Shown here in pieces: positions 20,161-28,081 of a DNA stretch of 51,058 nt; position 1 is the stretch's first letter; each line of letters begins with the position of its first letter. This stretch comes from an uncultured Meiothermus sp. (lineage in GTDB: Bacteria; Deinococcota; Deinococci; Deinococcales; Thermaceae): positions 1-51,058 of the forward strand of contig NZ_CALMCQ010000380.1 of the NCBI RefSeq assembly GCF_937863175.1. The letters run 5' to 3'. Under the pieces are notes generated by a model, which saw only the letters and a program-made list of their open reading frames with translations, made no database searches and was not told the origin of the DNA. Made by a program: the position numbers and the translations under genes.

Positions 20161-22509
20161 CTACCCCGGCTTTCCTTCGCGGCACACATCTCTAACGCTA
20201 CAACTACGGCAGCGGAAGCCGGGGTTGGGCTCCACCACCCCGGCCTTATAGCGGCTGTGCACTTCCTGGGCCTTGCTCAGGAGGTTCGCCAGCACACCCC
20301 AGACCTTTTCGACGGGCTTGTCGTAGACCAGCACCGGATCGCCCAGAACCGGCCAGGACCAGAGGTACACTTTGTTGATGCGTCCGGCAAATTCAGAAAG
20401 CAGATAGCCCGCTGCCCAGCGCTCGCTCCAGCGGTGACGCACCTGCTGGCTGGCGTCTTCGGGATGGGTGTTGGGCGCTACAAAGCGGTAGAGGTGGGCC
20501 TCGGTTCCCTTGCGCAAGACCGCATCTAAGCGTACCTCCAAACCCTGGCCTTCCAGCCTGAATCCCAGGTTTAACTCGCTCAGGCTTTCCTGGTGATGGC
20601 GCATCCAGCCCTCGGCCTGGGGAAACTGCTGGGCCAGGGCCTGAAGCCGCGCCGGTACAAGTTTCTCGGCTTTGCGAAATTCACGCACCCACTGCCGCCA
20701 CCACTCCTGGGTGGGCTGGTGGTCAAACTGAAAGGCCCAGTACTGCAAACCACACTCGCTATAGCGCCGCAGGGCTTCCACCCGGGCTCTGCCCAAATTA
20801 ACCGGGCTGAGAGGGGCCTGGTAACCTTCGGAGCGAGCCATCTCCAGCAGGCTGGCCGGGGGCAGTCTGGGCGGGTAGGCCGGTTTTCCCGCGATCAATA
20901 CGGGCTCCGGTTCCAGCGGCCCCTCCTGGCTGGCCTCGGGGTAGGTGATGATCACCTCGTCCGCGCGGGTTTTGAGTTCTTCCAGGAGCAGGCGATCCCG
21001 CCCCAAAAAACGCCGGGGCAGCAAGCCCCCCACCCTGGTTTGAACCAGCCGCATGACCTGCTCTAACCCTGCCCGCAACTCCTCGGGGATAAAGTAGTCT
21101 TCCTGTTCATTGGAACTATAGGCCCCCTCCACCCCATAGGTCAGGTAGAGCTTTTTCCAGCGCTGCCCCGAGGCCAGGGTGGGGGTGAGCAGGGCCACCC
21201 CTCCCGGCGGACGGTGTGGCTGGTAGGTCTCGGCCAGCAGTGCCGCCCACCAGTGGCGAAAATCCGGGCCAATCGCAATTCGGTGGGCCTCGAGGGCCCG
21301 TTCCATCAGGGTGGCCCGGCGCGGGCTGTGGCGTACCTCGGGCAGTGAGTCCAGCAGTTCGTTGGCCCAGGCCAGCGAGGGGTGCAAAGCTGGGTTCTGT
21401 GGGCTTCCGGCAAACGAAGACCCTTCCTCACCAGGGAGCTTGAGACGGGAAAGCCAGGCCGTCCAGACCTCCTGCATTCCCAGCTCCAGGGCCAGCCGGG
21501 TAATGGCCTGGGGGCCTACCAGGCTGCGCTCGAGGGCCACCCGGCCCAGCGGGGCCAGATCCGGTACCGCCAGAAGGCGGGTCGGGGTGGGGTAGTCGGG
21601 CAGATCCAGCAGCTCGAGCAAGAGCCGTCCCTCGGGGGTCTCGGCGGCGGTGCTGGACAGTTGCGAAATGAGTGGCAGGCCGTACTCATCGGCCAGGGTT
21701 AGCAGTGCCGGAATCCGCGACTCCGGCGCAATCACCGCAATCTCTAAAGCCGGCATTCCCAGCGCCAGGTCGCGCTTGATCGAACGCAGCACCCAGCGAG
21801 CCTCGCTGACCGGGTTCGGGGCGCGGTAGGTCTGGGTGTGGATAAAGCTATGGCCAAGCACCTCGTCGGGTCTAAACCCCGGCGGCGCTTCGGGCAGACT
21901 GACCCAGACCGGAACTTCTCTGGACAAGGCTTGCAGGAGGCGCAGCTCGAGAACACCCAGCTCGCGGAAGCCATCCACCACCACCAGGTCGGCCTCGATC
22001 TGGGCCGTACCCCGCTCCAGCAAGTCCAGCGCCCCCGAACGAAAGTCGTCGTAATCCCAGCGACCCATGTGGTCTTTGAGTTCTTCGTAGCGCGCATAGA
22101 CCTGCTGCAAGCGCCGGGCTTCGGGACTAAGCTGGGGAATTTCGGCGGGCATTACTCCGTTGCGCTTGGCCTCGGCAATGGAGCGGGCAAACAGGCGGGC
22201 CTCACCCGGACTCGGCAAAGGGCTGTCGCCCGAGATGAGTGCTTCGCCTACCAGTGCCACCCGGCCTGGCCCGGTCAGGATGGGCTTGAGGCCAAAGCTG
22301 GCTGCCAGCAGGCGGTAGTAGAGCTGCTGGGAGGTGAGCACCTCCAGCCCCAGCACCGCACCCCCCTGGGTAGCCCGGCGGTAGACATAGGCTTTTTGTG
22401 CAGGCAAGCAGACCCACCAGACCCGCTTGCGCTTAAGCAAAAAGGACTGGGCGACCTCGAGCAAGCGGGTGGTCTTGCTCGAGGCCGGGGGGCCCACGAG
22501 GAGGTGCAC
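20161..22509 (-). CDS. addB: AddB-like subunit of the AddAB recombination helicase
   Basis: This is an AddB-type protein of 782 residues from the proposed GTG start. AddB is the partner of AddA in double-strand-break resection and recognises Chi-like sites. The N-terminus has a P-loop-like GPPASSKTT. The C-terminus has the AddB iron-sulphur pattern: one cysteine in YSECGLQYW (586), then C-x2-C-x5-C (CRSCSVRDVC, 767-776). The nuclease core looks dead: the first Asp is present in VRLDAVL (662), but the D-x-K expected 12-14 residues later reads YRF. The frame is open to a TTG at 22527, but TATAGT ends 6 bases before the GTG at 22509, where the protein then begins MHLLVGPPASSKT. It is short next to Bacillus AddB (about 1170). 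Confidence 0.85.
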   Translation of the reverse strand: MHLLVGPPASSKTTRLLEVAQSFLLKRKRVWWVCLPAQKAYVYRRATQGGAVLGLEVLTSQQLYYRLLAASFGLKPILTGPGRVALVGEALISGDSPLPSPGEARLFARSIAEAKRNGVMPAEIPQLSPEARRLQQVYARYEELKDHMGRWDYDDFRSGALDLLERGTAQIEADLVVVDGFRELGVLELRLLQALSREVPVWVSLPEAPPGFRPDEVLGHSFIHTQTYRAPNPVSEARWVLRSIKRDLALGMPALEIAVIAPESRIPALLTLADEYGLPLISQLSSTAAETPEGRLLLELLDLPDYPTPTRLLAVPDLAPLGRVALERSLVGPQAITRLALELGMQEVWTAWLSRLKLPGEEGSSFAGSPQNPALHPSLAWANELLDSLPEVRHSPRRATLMERALEAHRIAIGPDFRHWWAALLAETYQPHRPPGGVALLTPTLASGQRWKKLYLTYGVEGAYSSNEQEDYFIPEELRAGLEQVMRLVQTRVGGLLPRRFLGRDRLLLEELKTRADEVIITYPEASQEGPLEPEPVLIAGKPAYPPRLPPASLLEMARSEGYQAPLSPVNLGRARVEALRRYSECGLQYWAFQFDHQPTQEWWRQWVREFRKAEKLVPARLQALAQQFPQAEGWMRHHQESLSELNLGFRLEGQGLEVRLDAVLRKGTEAHLYRFVAPNTHPEDASQQVRHRWSERWAAGYLLSEFAGRINKVYLWSWPVLGDPVLVYDKPVEKVWGVLANLLSKAQEVHSRYKAGVVEPNPGFRCRSCSVRDVCREGKPG

Positions 22510-22515
22510 GGGGTA

Positions 22516-22521
22516 ACTATA
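22516..22521 (-). promoter_or_regulatory. leaderless -10 box deciding the addB start
   Basis: TATAGT on the minus strand ends 6 bases before GTG 22509. It overlaps the codons that would follow a TTG start at 22527, so the TTG is unlikely to be used. Confidence 0.55.
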
Positions 22522-22527
22522 ATCCAA

Positions 22528-23008
22528 CAGCCGTTGGTCTCTGCTACCTGCTGGCGTTTCCGGGCATACGCATGTTGCTCAGACACCCCCCTTGCTGAGG
22601 GAAGACCCTAAACCCAGCGGCGGCTAGACCTGGACGGTTCAGAGGGGGTGGAATAACCCACCCCTTTTCTCATAGAACCTCCTCCATGCGGCCAAAAGAT
22701 GACCGGTTAACGGTGGTTGAACGGGCGGGCATGGAGCATGATTCCGCCGCGCTCGAGGTAGTCGAGCCACCCCCGGCTTCAGATCAATCTGAAACACTCA
22801 GGCCAAAGGTTTTGTCACCCTTCGAAACTACTGCGGTTCTAGGCTGAACTTTAGCCCAACTGCCGGTGGGTCGGCCATTCGGTCTCCCGGCATTGGAAGG
22901 TGGGGTGCGGGGTAGCCAGTCCGTGATCGCCCCCATCGCTGTAGTCTTCATGGTGCAAATGCGCCTGGTTCCTTCGGTATGCGGAGGAGTTAAGCAAATC
23001 CAACCCAC
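22528..23008. other. intergenic stretch holding an orphan terminator
   Basis: About 480 bases between divergent minus-strand units. A 53-codon plus-strand frame begins at 22686 without a ribosome binding site or family signature. The only clear signal is the hairpin at 22645-22668. Confidence 0.45.
22645..22668 (+). terminator. orphan rho-independent terminator
   Basis: GGGGTGG (22645-22651) pairs with CCACCCC (22658-22664) around a 6-base loop and is followed by TTTT. No plus-strand gene ends nearby: the closest stops 2.5 kb upstream, beyond addB on the other strand. A short untranslated transcript from about 22540 is possible. Confidence 0.55.
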
Positions 23009-23545
23009 CTAGCGAGTCGCAGGCTCCACCGCCGGAAACCGCACCGGCGAACGCCGGTAGGCCTGAAGCCAGCGGGGGTCGGAGAGCGGCTCGAGGTTCG
23101 GATTCAGCCGGATGATCCCCACCACCCGGCCCTGGAAGGTCAGAAAGCAGCGGAAGCCCCGTGGCTCCACCACGTACCAGTTGCCCAGACTGATGTTTTG
23201 CAGCGCCCTATCAAAGTGTCGGGCCAGCATACCGCGCAGGCGCAGGGCATCTTGCACGGGCCGCTCGAGAACCAGTACGGCAATTTCCTCGAGGCCCAGT
23301 GGAACCGGGGTCAGGTCAATGTTCACCGTAATTCGCGACACCGGCAGACCATCGGCTCCCAGCACCAGACGCAAAAAGAAGCGCTGGGGTGCGGCCCGCT
23401 CGGCATAGGCAAGCTGGGGGCGTAGATTCTGGGAGATAGCCTGGCAGCGATCCAGCACGGGCGGGTCGCTCGGTTGGGCCCAGCCCAGGGCCGCAAGGCC
23501 CCAAGTCCAGATGGCTATTGTCGGCAAAATTGCCCCGCGCCACAC
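23009..23545 (-). CDS. hypothetical exported protein, third gene of the copper operon
   Basis: The protein has 178 residues with a signal peptide (MWRGAILPTIAIWTWGLAALGWAQ, cleavage near 23). The mature part has two cysteines (DRCQAI and FRCFLTF) that could pair, and a beta-rich core with RFFLRLVLG and RVVGIIRLNPN. I do not recognise the family. It starts with GTG just 10 bases after the stop of the monooxygenase gene, with a GGAGAGG-like site overlapping the gap, so it is very likely cotranscribed with it and with the SCO gene. Its role in that pathway is unknown. Confidence 0.72.
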   Translation of the reverse strand: MWRGAILPTIAIWTWGLAALGWAQPSDPPVLDRCQAISQNLRPQLAYAERAAPQRFFLRLVLGADGLPVSRITVNIDLTPVPLGLEEIAVLVLERPVQDALRLRGMLARHFDRALQNISLGNWYVVEPRGFRCFLTFQGRVVGIIRLNPNLEPLSDPRWLQAYRRSPVRFPAVEPATR

Positions 23546-23555
23546 GGCCTCTCCC

Positions 23556-24935
23556 CTACTCTCTCACCCCAAACAAGGAACCCAAACACATCTCATCGGT
23601 AGTACCTTCGCCCCAGGTCATGTAGCGGGGCTGGAGCGACTCGCCGCCAGGGCCAGGAATGGCCGACTTGTTGTCGTAGACACAGGTCACCCGCACCCGG
23701 TCGCCCTGGCGCAATCGGAAGGGGGTCTGGTACCAGTACTCACCCTGCCACTGAAAGTTCCACTGTGGAATGTTCAGAAGGGTTCTGGCACTGGGGCTGC
23801 CGGGGTTGACTTCAACTCTGAACTCCACCCCCCGCAGGTGCATGTGGGCGGTCACACCGTAGACTTCCATACTGCTCTGTGCCGTCCAGTCGCAGGAGGT
23901 GGCCTGCCGGCTGCCATCGCCCACCTCACGCCGAGCGTAAGCTTCGATGGAGGTGTTGCACAACAGGTGAATCCAGTCGGCAATGAAGCCCAGCTCGGTC
24001 TTGGCGCGGGCGTACTCGCGGGTGCACTGCTCGCCGGTCATGCCCGGTGGGCACTTAATTTCGACGGGTGCCGCCAGGGTCATGCCCACCAATCGCTTGA
24101 GCTGGGTGCCTTTGGGGGCTAGATATAAAGCCATCTGGGTAGCGTCGGGGTTGGCACCCGAAGAGGTGTTGTAGTGCACCTGCATAACCACCCGGCTACC
24201 CGCCCGCAAAAGCCGTCCGGTACCCTCCGGCAGCAGGGTTGCACCGCCGCCCGGCACCCAGAACCCCAAAATGCCCCCTATGTTGCGGGGGTCGCTGCTG
24301 AGGCCCGGCCCGCCAAAGCATTTCCAACCAGGGCCGGTCTCGGCCCGATCCTTGGCCTCGGCAGCCCCCACCATATCGGGGCCAATCAGGAACAAGATCA
24401 CGTGGTGTACGCTGCGTTTGTCGCCAGGAATAATTTTGTAACCGGTCATGTAGGTGTCGCTGTCGAAGGTGGCAGGCATCAGGAAGCAGCGGTAATCATC
24501 CAGCATCGCATCGTCGGGTGTGTAGGGTGGGTTGAGCCCTGCTACCAGATCGGGCTGAGGCAAGGGGGCCGCGGCTTTGGCAGCCACCGGCCCTGGATCG
24601 CCCAGCGGCGCGCCCGCCTCGGCCCAGGCTACCAACGCAGCCCTGGCACTTTCGGAAAGTTTGCGCTCGTGCTTGAGCGGCGGGGTACCCGGTCCGGGGG
24701 GCCAGGGCGGCATTCGGCCCTGCTTCACCGAATCCGCGATGGCAGCAGCCATATTCCTGGCCCAGCGGGCATCGTCCAGGGGAAAAGGGGCTATGCCCCC
24801 TTCGGTATGGCAAGCTGCACAATTGGCTTGCAGTATTTCGGCCACTTCCCCGTGGTAGGTGGGGGGGTGGGTAGGCCCAGCACCCATCAACCCCAGCGCG
24901 AAAAAGAATATAACCAGAACGGAAAGTTTCGGCAT
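23556..24935 (-). CDS. cytochrome c / copper type II monooxygenase fusion protein
   Basis: This 459-residue exported protein has a signal peptide (about 1-20), then a small cytochrome c domain with heme site C39-A-A-C42-H43 and probable axial Met75 (GRMPPWPP). The rest matches the copper type II ascorbate-dependent monooxygenase fold of peptidylglycine and dopamine hydroxylases. Both copper sites can be assigned: His177, His178 and His254 (SVHHVILF, QVHYN) for the electron-transfer copper, and His364, His366 and Met449 (AHMHLRG, DEMC) for the oxygen-binding copper. The animal enzymes take electrons from ascorbate; here the fused heme may deliver them, which is inference. The substrate is unknown. 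The ATG lies 2 bases after the SCO stop, with AGGT across the junction. Confidence 0.88.
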   Translation of the reverse strand: MPKLSVLVIFFFALGLMGAGPTHPPTYHGEVAEILQANCAACHTEGGIAPFPLDDARWARNMAAAIADSVKQGRMPPWPPGPGTPPLKHERKLSESARAALVAWAEAGAPLGDPGPVAAKAAAPLPQPDLVAGLNPPYTPDDAMLDDYRCFLMPATFDSDTYMTGYKIIPGDKRSVHHVILFLIGPDMVGAAEAKDRAETGPGWKCFGGPGLSSDPRNIGGILGFWVPGGGATLLPEGTGRLLRAGSRVVMQVHYNTSSGANPDATQMALYLAPKGTQLKRLVGMTLAAPVEIKCPPGMTGEQCTREYARAKTELGFIADWIHLLCNTSIEAYARREVGDGSRQATSCDWTAQSSMEVYGVTAHMHLRGVEFRVEVNPGSPSARTLLNIPQWNFQWQGEYWYQTPFRLRQGDRVRVTCVYDNKSAIPGPGGESLQPRYMTWGEGTTDEMCLGSLFGVRE

Positions 24936-24937
24936 GG

Positions 24938-25510
24938 TTACCTCAGCAAACGGGCTATTTCTTCTTTCAGTTTAGCGGTGGAAAGGCGGCTCACCCCATA
25001 CAACATGCGCACCAGACGCCCCTCGGAGTCCAGCAGGGCCATCGCATCGGTGTGAAAGATCAGCCGTCCCCCCGGAGCCGGGTTGTACTCAACCCTGGCA
25101 ACATCGGCAATTTGACGAATGGCTTCGGGCTTGCCCGTAAGTCCCTGGATCGGAGCAAAACCCCGCAGATATGTTTGCAGCGCCTGGGGGGTATCGCGCT
25201 CGTCCACGCTGAGCAGCATCAGTTGCAGGTCTGGGGGTGAGCCCAGGGCTTCGTAGGCTGGCAGCAGGCGGCCCAGCGTGAGGGGGCAAAGATCCGGGCA
25301 CCGGGTGTAGCCAAAGAGCACCACCGCGAGGCCTCTGGGGGGAAACATCACAGCCTTGTTTTGGTGGGAGCGAAGCTCAACGGTTGGCAGGGTTTTGGCA
25401 GGTTTGAAATCGGCGGCGCCCGGCCCCGAAGCGGGCAAATAATGTCCTCCGTGCGCCCATACCCAACCCGCACATAAGAAAAGGAGAAGGTTGCGTAGAA
25501 GTGGTTTCAT
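24938..25510 (-). CDS. SCO1/SenC family copper chaperone
   Basis: This 190-residue protein belongs to the SCO family, membrane-anchored or periplasmic thioredoxin-fold proteins that deliver copper, classically to the CuA site of cytochrome oxidase. The copper ligands are present: C71-PDL-C75 in FGYTRCPDLCP and His153 in IFHTD. A hydrophobic leader with a histidine patch (WAHGGHYLP) precedes the fold. It is the first gene of the operon with the copper monooxygenase, so here it may load copper onto that enzyme. I favour the ATG at 25510, where the signal peptide begins MKPLLRN. An in-frame ATG at 25522 is possible, and neither has a good ribosome binding site. Confidence 0.9.
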   Translation of the reverse strand: MKPLLRNLLLFLCAGWVWAHGGHYLPASGPGAADFKPAKTLPTVELRSHQNKAVMFPPRGLAVVLFGYTRCPDLCPLTLGRLLPAYEALGSPPDLQLMLLSVDERDTPQALQTYLRGFAPIQGLTGKPEAIRQIADVARVEYNPAPGGRLIFHTDAMALLDSEGRLVRMLYGVSRLSTAKLKEEIARLLR

Positions 25511-25544
25511 TTTCACTATCATGGCTGGAATTGCCCGGAAAGAA

Positions 25545-25642: not shown

Positions 25643-28081
25643 TCATCCCACCACTTCCAGCCGGGCATAGCGCAGGGCCAGTCTGCGTACCCCATCGCCA
25701 AAGGCAATGGTGGCAACCCCCTCGTCCAGGCTAACTACCAGCCCGGTGCCAAACTGGGCGTGCCTGACTTTTTGTCCGGCAGTGAGGATGGCTTGACTGG
25801 AAGCCGTGAGGGGCTTGAAGATAAAGCGCTCGAGGTCCGCAAACTCGCCGTCGGTCCTTTCGCCGGGCTCGGCGTCGAAAGCTTCCCAAACGCCTCTGGC
25901 CTGGGGGGCCAGGCCCAGCGCTTCCGACCAGCGCTCCCGCTCGGCGAGGGCGAACAGCCGCAGAACCTTGGCAGCGATCTCGTGTGGCTGCTGGGAGTTC
26001 CACCACTGGAACAGATAGCGTTCCAGGCCCAGTTTGTATGCGCCATGGGCCAGGGCCAGGGTCTGGGCAGTGGAAAGTTCCTCGGCCTTCAGAACCAGTG
26101 CTTCCCCAACCCGCTCGACCGCACCCAGGACTTGCAGGTGCTCGGCTTCTTTGAGGAAGGGCGAGAGTGGCAGGCTAGACAGGGCATACAGATAGGTGTG
26201 CTGGGAGCTTCGGGTCAGGGCCACGTAGAACAGGCGGCGTTCTTCCTCGAGGTTCTCCGAGCCGCTGTAGGGCAGGGTACCCTCGTTGCAGTCGGGGATG
26301 AAGACCAGAGGCCACTCCAGCCCCTTGGCTCGGAAGATGGTCATCAGGCTAACCCGCTCGCGGGTGTCCTGTGCGGGGTCGTCGCCCAGGTGTTCCTGAG
26401 CCAGAAGCTCGATGTGCCGGAGCAATTCGTGCGCACTGCCCTTATCTCGGGCATACTCGAGAAAAGCCCGCACGCCTTCGGTCTTGCCCGCCCCCACCTC
26501 GTAGAAGCCCGAGGAACGCAGCAGGTGGTGGCGGTAGTCCAGGCGCGAGTCCAGCGCCTCCAGCACCGCGTGGGCCGAGCCTCGTTCCACCGCTCCCCCC
26601 AGCCACTCGAACAGTTCGGCCAGCTCGCGCAGCCGCCGGGCGACCCGCTCCTCTGCGCCCGCCATCGCCGCCTCGAGCGCTTCCACCAGCGAGGCGCCCT
26701 TTTCCACCTGCCGCCAGACCGAGTCGGCCAGGGCACGGGTCAGGTAGCGTTTTGGTGTGTTGTAGATTTGTAGCCAGAGGCGCTTGTAATCCCCCCACAA
26801 AACCTCAGCACTGGCCCCCTTACCAAGGGGGCTCCGCGCAGCGGTAGGGGACTGGGCCAGCCGCAGGTAGGCCAGCAAAACTTGAATTTCTGGGCGCTGG
26901 TAGAAGGGCACACTGCCTACCACCCGGTAGGGGATCTGCCGCTCGATCAGACACTGCTCGATATAGGGGGTCTGGGCGTAGAGCCGCACCAGCACCACCA
27001 TCTCGGTGGCCTTGCGGCCTTCGGCCAGCAGTCCTGCAATATCGCTGACCAGGCTCTGGGCCTGGGCAGGCATATGGGGCTCCAGGCGAATATGCACCCG
27101 GCCCCCAAAACCTTTGGTCAGGCTCAGGCGCTTGGGCTCACGGTTCTGGTTCTGCGCGATCACCCGGTCTGCTAGCGCGACCTGCGGCGCGGGACAGCGG
27201 AAGGTGTCGCGGATCAGGTATTTTTGTGCGTGGTAGCGTGGGGCAAACTCGAGGATGAAGCGCGGCGAGGCCCCACGCCATTCGTAGATGGTCTGGTCGT
27301 CGTCACCCACAGCCATATAGTTGCGGTGCGGCGCGGTGATCAAATCCAGCATCTCCGACTGGGCCAGGTTCACATCCTGAAACTCGTCCACCAGCACGGC
27401 CTGAAAGGCCTTTTGCACGGTTTGCAGAATGTCGGGATAGCGCACCAGCGCCTCCCAGCCGCTCATCAGCATGTCGTCGAAGGTAAGCAGGCCCTCCTCC
27501 TGCCGAACCTGCTCCATCAGCCTGTAAAGCTCGAGATACCACTCGAGTTCCTGGGGCGCACGGGCCTGCGAGGCCACTTTCAGGGCCTCGGGCGGCAGAC
27601 CGGCCCCCTTCAGATCGGCGTACTGCAGGTTTCCTTTGCAGGCTCCCACGTAGCTCAGAAAGTCTTCGGACTCGAGGTTTTCCAGTTCGGGCGCCCAGGG
27701 CAGTTTCAAGTCCCTGGCCCGCCGCAGGGTACGCTGCAACAGGGCCTGTTCGGAGCCCTCTTCCTTGACCTCGGCCAGCTTCACAAGCCCCTCCGAAGCC
27801 GCCTTGCGCACGATGCGGTAGCCCAGCGCGTGCAGTGTGGAAACCTGCACCCCCTGGGTGTGGGGCCAGCTCGAGAGCGAGCGCTTGAGGTCGTCCACCG
27901 CCAGGCGGCTGAAGGAGGTTGCCAACACCCGGCGCGGTTCAAAAACCCTCTCGCGTACCAGGCGTTCCAAACGATGCACCAGCGCCGTAGTCTTGCCCGC
28001 TCCCGCCACCGCAAACACCAGCGCAGGCCCCTCGTTATGGGCCACAATGGCTTGTTGTTCGTCGGTCAGGCGCAAAGACAC
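25643..28081 (-). CDS. UvrD/PcrA-like superfamily 1 DNA helicase
   Basis: This 812-residue helicase of the UvrD/PcrA/Rep group unwinds DNA 3' to 5' in repair and replication restart. Motifs seen in order: Q-motif LTDEQQAIVAH, Walker A AGAGKTT (26-32), TFDDML, Walker B DEFQDVN, GDDDQTIYEWRGA, TFRCP, YQRPEIQVLLAYLRL, MTIFRAKGLEWPLVF and FYVALTR. The last 45 residues (GQKVRHAQFGTG, VTIAFGDG-like) form the Tudor-type RNA polymerase-binding domain of UvrD/PcrA. A stretch of about 18 residues after YLRLAQSP has no counterpart in the family and is coded by a hairpin repeat. It starts with GTG and no ribosome binding site. Two other UvrD-class proteins (AddA, AddB) lie upstream in the window. Confidence 0.9.
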   Translation of the reverse strand: MSLRLTDEQQAIVAHNEGPALVFAVAGAGKTTALVHRLERLVRERVFEPRRVLATSFSRLAVDDLKRSLSSWPHTQGVQVSTLHALGYRIVRKAASEGLVKLAEVKEEGSEQALLQRTLRRARDLKLPWAPELENLESEDFLSYVGACKGNLQYADLKGAGLPPEALKVASQARAPQELEWYLELYRLMEQVRQEEGLLTFDDMLMSGWEALVRYPDILQTVQKAFQAVLVDEFQDVNLAQSEMLDLITAPHRNYMAVGDDDQTIYEWRGASPRFILEFAPRYHAQKYLIRDTFRCPAPQVALADRVIAQNQNREPKRLSLTKGFGGRVHIRLEPHMPAQAQSLVSDIAGLLAEGRKATEMVVLVRLYAQTPYIEQCLIERQIPYRVVGSVPFYQRPEIQVLLAYLRLAQSPTAARSPLGKGASAEVLWGDYKRLWLQIYNTPKRYLTRALADSVWRQVEKGASLVEALEAAMAGAEERVARRLRELAELFEWLGGAVERGSAHAVLEALDSRLDYRHHLLRSSGFYEVGAGKTEGVRAFLEYARDKGSAHELLRHIELLAQEHLGDDPAQDTRERVSLMTIFRAKGLEWPLVFIPDCNEGTLPYSGSENLEEERRLFYVALTRSSQHTYLYALSSLPLSPFLKEAEHLQVLGAVERVGEALVLKAEELSTAQTLALAHGAYKLGLERYLFQWWNSQQPHEIAAKVLRLFALAERERWSEALGLAPQARGVWEAFDAEPGERTDGEFADLERFIFKPLTASSQAILTAGQKVRHAQFGTGLVVSLDEGVATIAFGDGVRRLALRYARLEVVG
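26814..26832. repeat. REP-like hairpin inside the helicase gene
   Basis: GCCCCCTT-ACC-AAGGGGGC forms an 8 bp stem with a 3-base loop. Together with the flanking GCGCAGCGGTAGGGGACTGG it resembles dispersed intergenic repeats. It is read in frame as part of the helicase. Confidence 0.6.

Follow-up and report, generated by a model that had tools for sequence, protein, structure and literature searches.

In PHM and DBH, the transfer of electrons between two copper sites that lie roughly 11 Angstrom apart has been studied intensively. In the chemistry described for these enzymes, CuH accepts electrons, while CuM binds O2 and the substrate (PMC6123673, PMC4846438). DBH also carries an N-terminal DOMON domain, which has a cytochrome-like fold without heme (PMC4846438). 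In a 2020 metalloprotein review, PHM and dopamine beta-monooxygenase appear solely among the cuproproteins of eukaryotes (PMC7435645). The PHM/DBH-type family is not new in bacteria, because Pfam models match bacterial members. Our literature search found no paper describing a bacterial heme-fused PHM, although this is not proof of absence.

The window analyzed here, a stretch of 51,058 nucleotides from an uncultured Meiothermus sp., contains such a bacterial enzyme, and relatives with 87-91% identity were found in genomes of the same genus, the named ones being Meiothermus. Three co-directional genes lie on the minus strand: one for an exported SCO1/SenC-family protein of 194 aa (24938..25522; Pfam SCO1-SenC, 9e-20; PDB match 2k6v, 9.5e-18), one for an exported fusion of a cytochrome c and a PHM/DBH-type two-copper monooxygenase of 459 aa (23556..24935; assigned by Pfam, profile alignment, and an AlphaFold model), and a third for an exported protein of 178 aa (23009..23545). 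The SCO and monooxygenase genes are 2 bp apart and the monooxygenase and third genes 10 bp apart, spacing that makes a shared transcript plausible for all three. A promoter scan found no sigma-70-like site. The SCO gene had been bounded at 25510 in the preliminary description; this ORF is real but extends to 25522, the start adopted here, and 25510 is a later, internal in-frame ATG.

The flanking context, also on the minus strand, consists of an addB/RecB-like gene (20161..22527; recognized by weak UvrD/PDDEXK matches and synteny) and, bordering the SCO-monooxygenase pair on its SCO side, a UvrD/Rep-type helicase gene (25643..28081; Pfam UvrD-helicase, 8.8e-50). A spacer of 480 bp (22528-23008) separates the third gene from the addB-like gene; in several relatives, the corresponding spacer is just tens of bases long. 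The spacer in the window is single-copy in the genome, which rules out a repeat. With moderate confidence, we propose that the locus holds a two-gene exported module in which SCO would mature a heme-fed, O2-dependent CuH/CuM monooxygenase acting on a non-peptidylglycine substrate, the third gene being an addB-linked neighbor. The domains, ligands, fold, conservation, gene order, losses, and empty site on which this proposal draws were read from sequence.

Judged by its predicted copper sites and modeled fold, the fused enzyme is a member of the PHM/DBH superfamily. Pfam Cu2_monoox_C matched residues 346-451 (4.6e-6; 26.6 bits against a cut-off of 23), and the N-domain model Cu2_monooxygen matched residues 148-258 at 4e-4, with 20.9 bits, under its cut-off of 30. 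All six copper ligands were invariant in a 31-sequence bacterial family alignment and corresponded one-to-one with those of rat PHM by profile alignment. The CuH ligands are His177-His178 (24402..24407, minus strand; rat PHM H107/H108) and His254 in the motif QVHY (24174..24176, minus strand; H172), and the CuM ligands are His364 and His366 (23838..23846, minus strand; H242/H244) and Met449 in the motif DEMC (23589..23591, minus strand; M314). The complete set of ligands that the preliminary description saw for both copper sites thus holds up across the family, with neither site lost in any of the 31 sequences. Cysteines C150, C206, C418, and C450 were likewise invariant in this alignment.

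Searches of solved structures gave the same assignment. The 31-sequence family profile matched rat PHM (1e-13) and human DBH (6e-10); PHM was absent from the PDB matches when the single monooxygenase sequence served as the query, but was recovered by the profile. Foldseek comparison of the AlphaFold model (pLDDT 88, pTM 0.85) returned DBH (2.8e-13) and PHM as the best PDB matches, with E values of 1e-12 to 1e-13 and a TM score of up to 0.69 on the PHM chain, and recovered the two-subdomain beta fold of the superfamily. The fused enzyme therefore resembles PHM (rat 1PHM/1OPM) in its two-domain fold, its six copper ligands, and its QVHY and DEMC motifs, and shares its catalytic core and ligands with DBH (4ZEL), the best PDB match of the model. 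Unlike PHM, it is fused to a cytochrome c, and unlike DBH, it is bacterial and has a c-type cytochrome where DBH has its N-terminal DOMON domain.

A further difference from PHM concerns the substrate. In rat PHM, R240 and N316 bind the peptide carboxylate. The profile alignment places T362 and the invariant L451 of the fused enzyme at these positions, and among the 31 sequences, position 362 is never Arg and position 451 is always Leu. Because both counterparts are replaced family-wide, the fused enzyme is probably not peptidylglycine- or peptide-amidating. Gene context was discarded as a guide to the substrate, since no common substrate gene emerged among the neighbors in different phyla, which are unrelated genes of housekeeping or lineage-specific type.

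The heme domain was identified by a Pfam Cytochrome_CBB3 match to residues 31-80 of the fused enzyme (1.9e-7; 31.7 bits against a cut-off of 27). Its CXXCH heme-attachment motif, CAACH (residues 39-43; 24807..24821, minus strand), was conserved in 18 of the 18 heme-bearing sequences of the alignment, as was the predicted axial heme ligand Met75 (24711..24713, minus strand), which lies in MPPW here and in MPP[WY] across the set. These features bear out the heme site that had been proposed on the monooxygenase chain. In M. granaticius and some order-mates, two adjoining genes encode the cytochrome (about 122-139 aa) and the monooxygenase separately, so the two domains are linked even when unfused.

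Other bacterial Cu2_monoox proteins, from Myxococcota, Actinomycetota, and Fraserbacteria, belong to the same family, share 31-47% identity with the fused enzyme, and are often heme-fused. They differ from it in that most have no SCO neighbor, and the actinobacterial ones often have no heme. In a tree of the copper domain, fused enzymes were scattered across Myxococcota, Deinococcota, and some Actinomycetota, split enzymes made up one clade, and two large actinobacterial groups were without heme; two long Acidobacteria rows were scored as heme-less in this tree, though both carry CXXCH. A heme-fused monooxygenase from a record titled as a Klebsiella pneumoniae MAG (L069, CAMAWH010000002.1) grouped near the Myxococcota forms, and the record is probably misnamed. 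Multi-copy expansions of the monooxygenase are seen in order-mates G052, G056, and G064 of family f5 (up to nine matching stretches, in G052) and in several genomes of the L086 family, with 5-6 matching stretches in some actinobacteria. A Fraserbacteria locus (L035, 5893-7885) encodes tandem monooxygenases, the first of 374 aa and the second a 266-aa copy without the CuH half.

No cytochrome-like ORF was found near the enzyme in 65 of 146 loci, a set in which loci partly overlap and flank lengths differ. Relatives in Nocardioides and Acidimicrobiia have no heme domain on the chain or nearby and keep all copper ligands, which indicates that some family members can dispense with heme. These relatives would also fit a different role for the heme (sensing, structure, or storage), with a small reductant acting as the donor to CuH as it does in animals. 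We consider this unlikely, given that the fusion is widespread in the copper-domain tree and that the cytochrome is still adjacent where the gene is split. The heme looks functional where it is present, yet the fold can apparently do without it, and electron flow to copper through the fused heme is plausible for the enzyme in the window.

The neighboring SCO protein carries the CxxxC motif CPDLC (C75 and C79; 25286..25300, minus strand) and a predicted third copper ligand, His157 in FHTDA (25052..25054, minus strand), both aligned with other SCOs. The CxxxC and distal His of SCO1/SenC proteins are therefore both present, while the thioredoxin fold is assigned by homology. The protein shares these residues, a signal peptide, and the Pfam match with known SCO1/SenC chaperones, and differs from them in that its partner is a monooxygenase, not an oxidase, and in having a conserved AHG[GT]HYLPASGPG N-terminus. 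After the predicted signal peptide, the protein starts with the HG[GT]HYLPASGPG part of this stretch in both genera (the window; L032, L095, L099, and L100), and the mature N-terminal His could form an extra copper site.

SCO proteins are the classical CuA assembly factors, and in Thermus thermophilus, CuA is assembled by an SCO and PCuAC pair (PMC6696091). The SCO in the window might accordingly serve cytochrome c oxidase, with its position beside the monooxygenase being accidental. Calidithermus is compatible with this view and indicates that SCO is not obligatory, since its genomes G018 and G022 encode the fused enzyme with no SCO of the module type beside it. However, the genome to which the window belongs has a separate SCO, 39% identical to the module SCO, that adjoins a PCuAC gene (L175). 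A strong SCO (145-158 bits) was present in 16/16 Meiothermus genomes, while a second kind (~70 bits) was confined to G000, G002, G003, G004, G005, G008, and G015, exactly the seven of the 16 that have the fused enzyme; it was also found in G020 and G023 of a sister genus. Two strong COX1 matches were detected in each of G000, G013, and G007, of which G013 and G007 have neither the module nor the ~70-bit SCO. The adjacency also recurs in another phylum: two actinobacterial genomes, L086 and L156, have a SCO1/SenC gene immediately upstream of one encoding a heme-less relative, though such a neighbor was present in only 2 of about 30 loci of the actinobacterial family searched. On this evidence, an SCO that serves only the oxidase is very unlikely. 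As the two genes are adjacent, the joint absence of SCO and enzyme may reflect only two deletion events. The distribution and gene order nevertheless favor the earlier suggestion that this SCO works for the monooxygenase rather than for cytochrome oxidase, and we conclude that it is probably dedicated to that enzyme as a copper/thiol maturation factor.

What SCO would do for the enzyme is a separate question. It might be a thiol reductase or isomerase that does not metallate, and might either maintain reduced CXXCH cysteines so that heme can be attached or handle structural disulfides. The Sco of Thermus thermophilus reduces the cysteines of COX II instead of delivering copper (PMC6696091), and the four family-invariant cysteines of the fused enzyme are in line with such a role. 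We find it doubtful nonetheless, as the module SCO has retained the residues usual for copper binding, CxxxC and His. Moreover, the relatives that directly follow an SCO gene in L086 and L156 have no CXXCH, which means that SCO must do more there than assist heme attachment.

The preliminary description had treated all three genes as one operon and the third protein as a component of the system. The ORFs are indeed co-directional and tightly spaced, all three products appear to be exported, and the three-gene order is kept in Meiothermus and in G018, G020, G022, and G023, as would be expected if the third protein were a partner of the monooxygenase. However, the third gene also occurs elsewhere without the enzyme: its homologues were found in 47 of 81 relatives, compared to 19 for the enzyme. 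It lies directly upstream of the addB-like gene in at least five enzyme-less Meiothermus genomes (G007, G010, G012, G013, and G016) and in two, G001 and G017, that have a split enzyme elsewhere. Weak homologues occupy the same position in several genomes of Thermus, which is without the enzyme. In G013 (L121), addB, the third gene, and the helicase gene follow one another with nothing between, leaving the SCO-monooxygenase site empty; over 18-26 bp, the sequence that follows the helicase stop is 92-100% identical to carrier DNA upstream of SCO.

In a tree of addB, the genomes without the pair were nested among carriers in two places, although some forks were modestly supported, and sister genera have the enzyme at the same locus. 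The simplest reading of this pattern is that the SCO-monooxygenase pair was lost at least twice. At each loss, SCO and the enzyme disappeared together and the third gene was retained, so by synteny and losses it is not co-inherited with them. We therefore rejected the third gene as a part of the module and judge it, from its genomic distribution, to be an addB-linked neighbor. A single three-gene functional operon is largely refuted by these comparisons, and we regard it as extremely unlikely. The third protein had no Pfam, NCBIfam, or fold match, and just one of five structure-prediction runs gave a good model of it. Its gene (23009-23545; homologues in L121-L133) represents an uncharacterized exported family that is constantly found beside the addB-like recombination nuclease gene in Thermaceae.

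Within the proposed two-gene module, SCO would deliver copper to the enzyme encoded 2 bp downstream, or would maintain the proper redox state of its metal sites or cysteines. The N-terminal cytochrome c would accept electrons from respiratory-chain cytochromes located in the periplasm and pass them to CuH, replacing or supplementing ascorbate, and CuM would bind O2 and hydroxylate a substrate that is probably small and non-peptidylglycine. In this scheme, we infer SCO metallation, heme-to-CuH electron transfer, hydroxylase activity, and the class of substrate from the features described above. More tentatively, the locus could represent a heme-wired, ascorbate-independent class of bacterial PHM/DBH-type enzymes, with respiratory electrons entering through a cytochrome c that is fused or adjacent, a privately linked SCO metallating the enzyme, and a new, non-peptide substrate.

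In contrast to the eukaryote-only listing of PHM and dopamine beta-monooxygenase, members of the family occur in several bacterial phyla, with their copper sites intact and often with a heme of their own. The module would offer a case of an SCO protein serving something besides cytochrome oxidase. For the question of inter-copper electron transfer, the fused heme would serve as a spectroscopic reporter and as a defined point of electron entry, on a protein that, coming from a thermophile, is probably stable.
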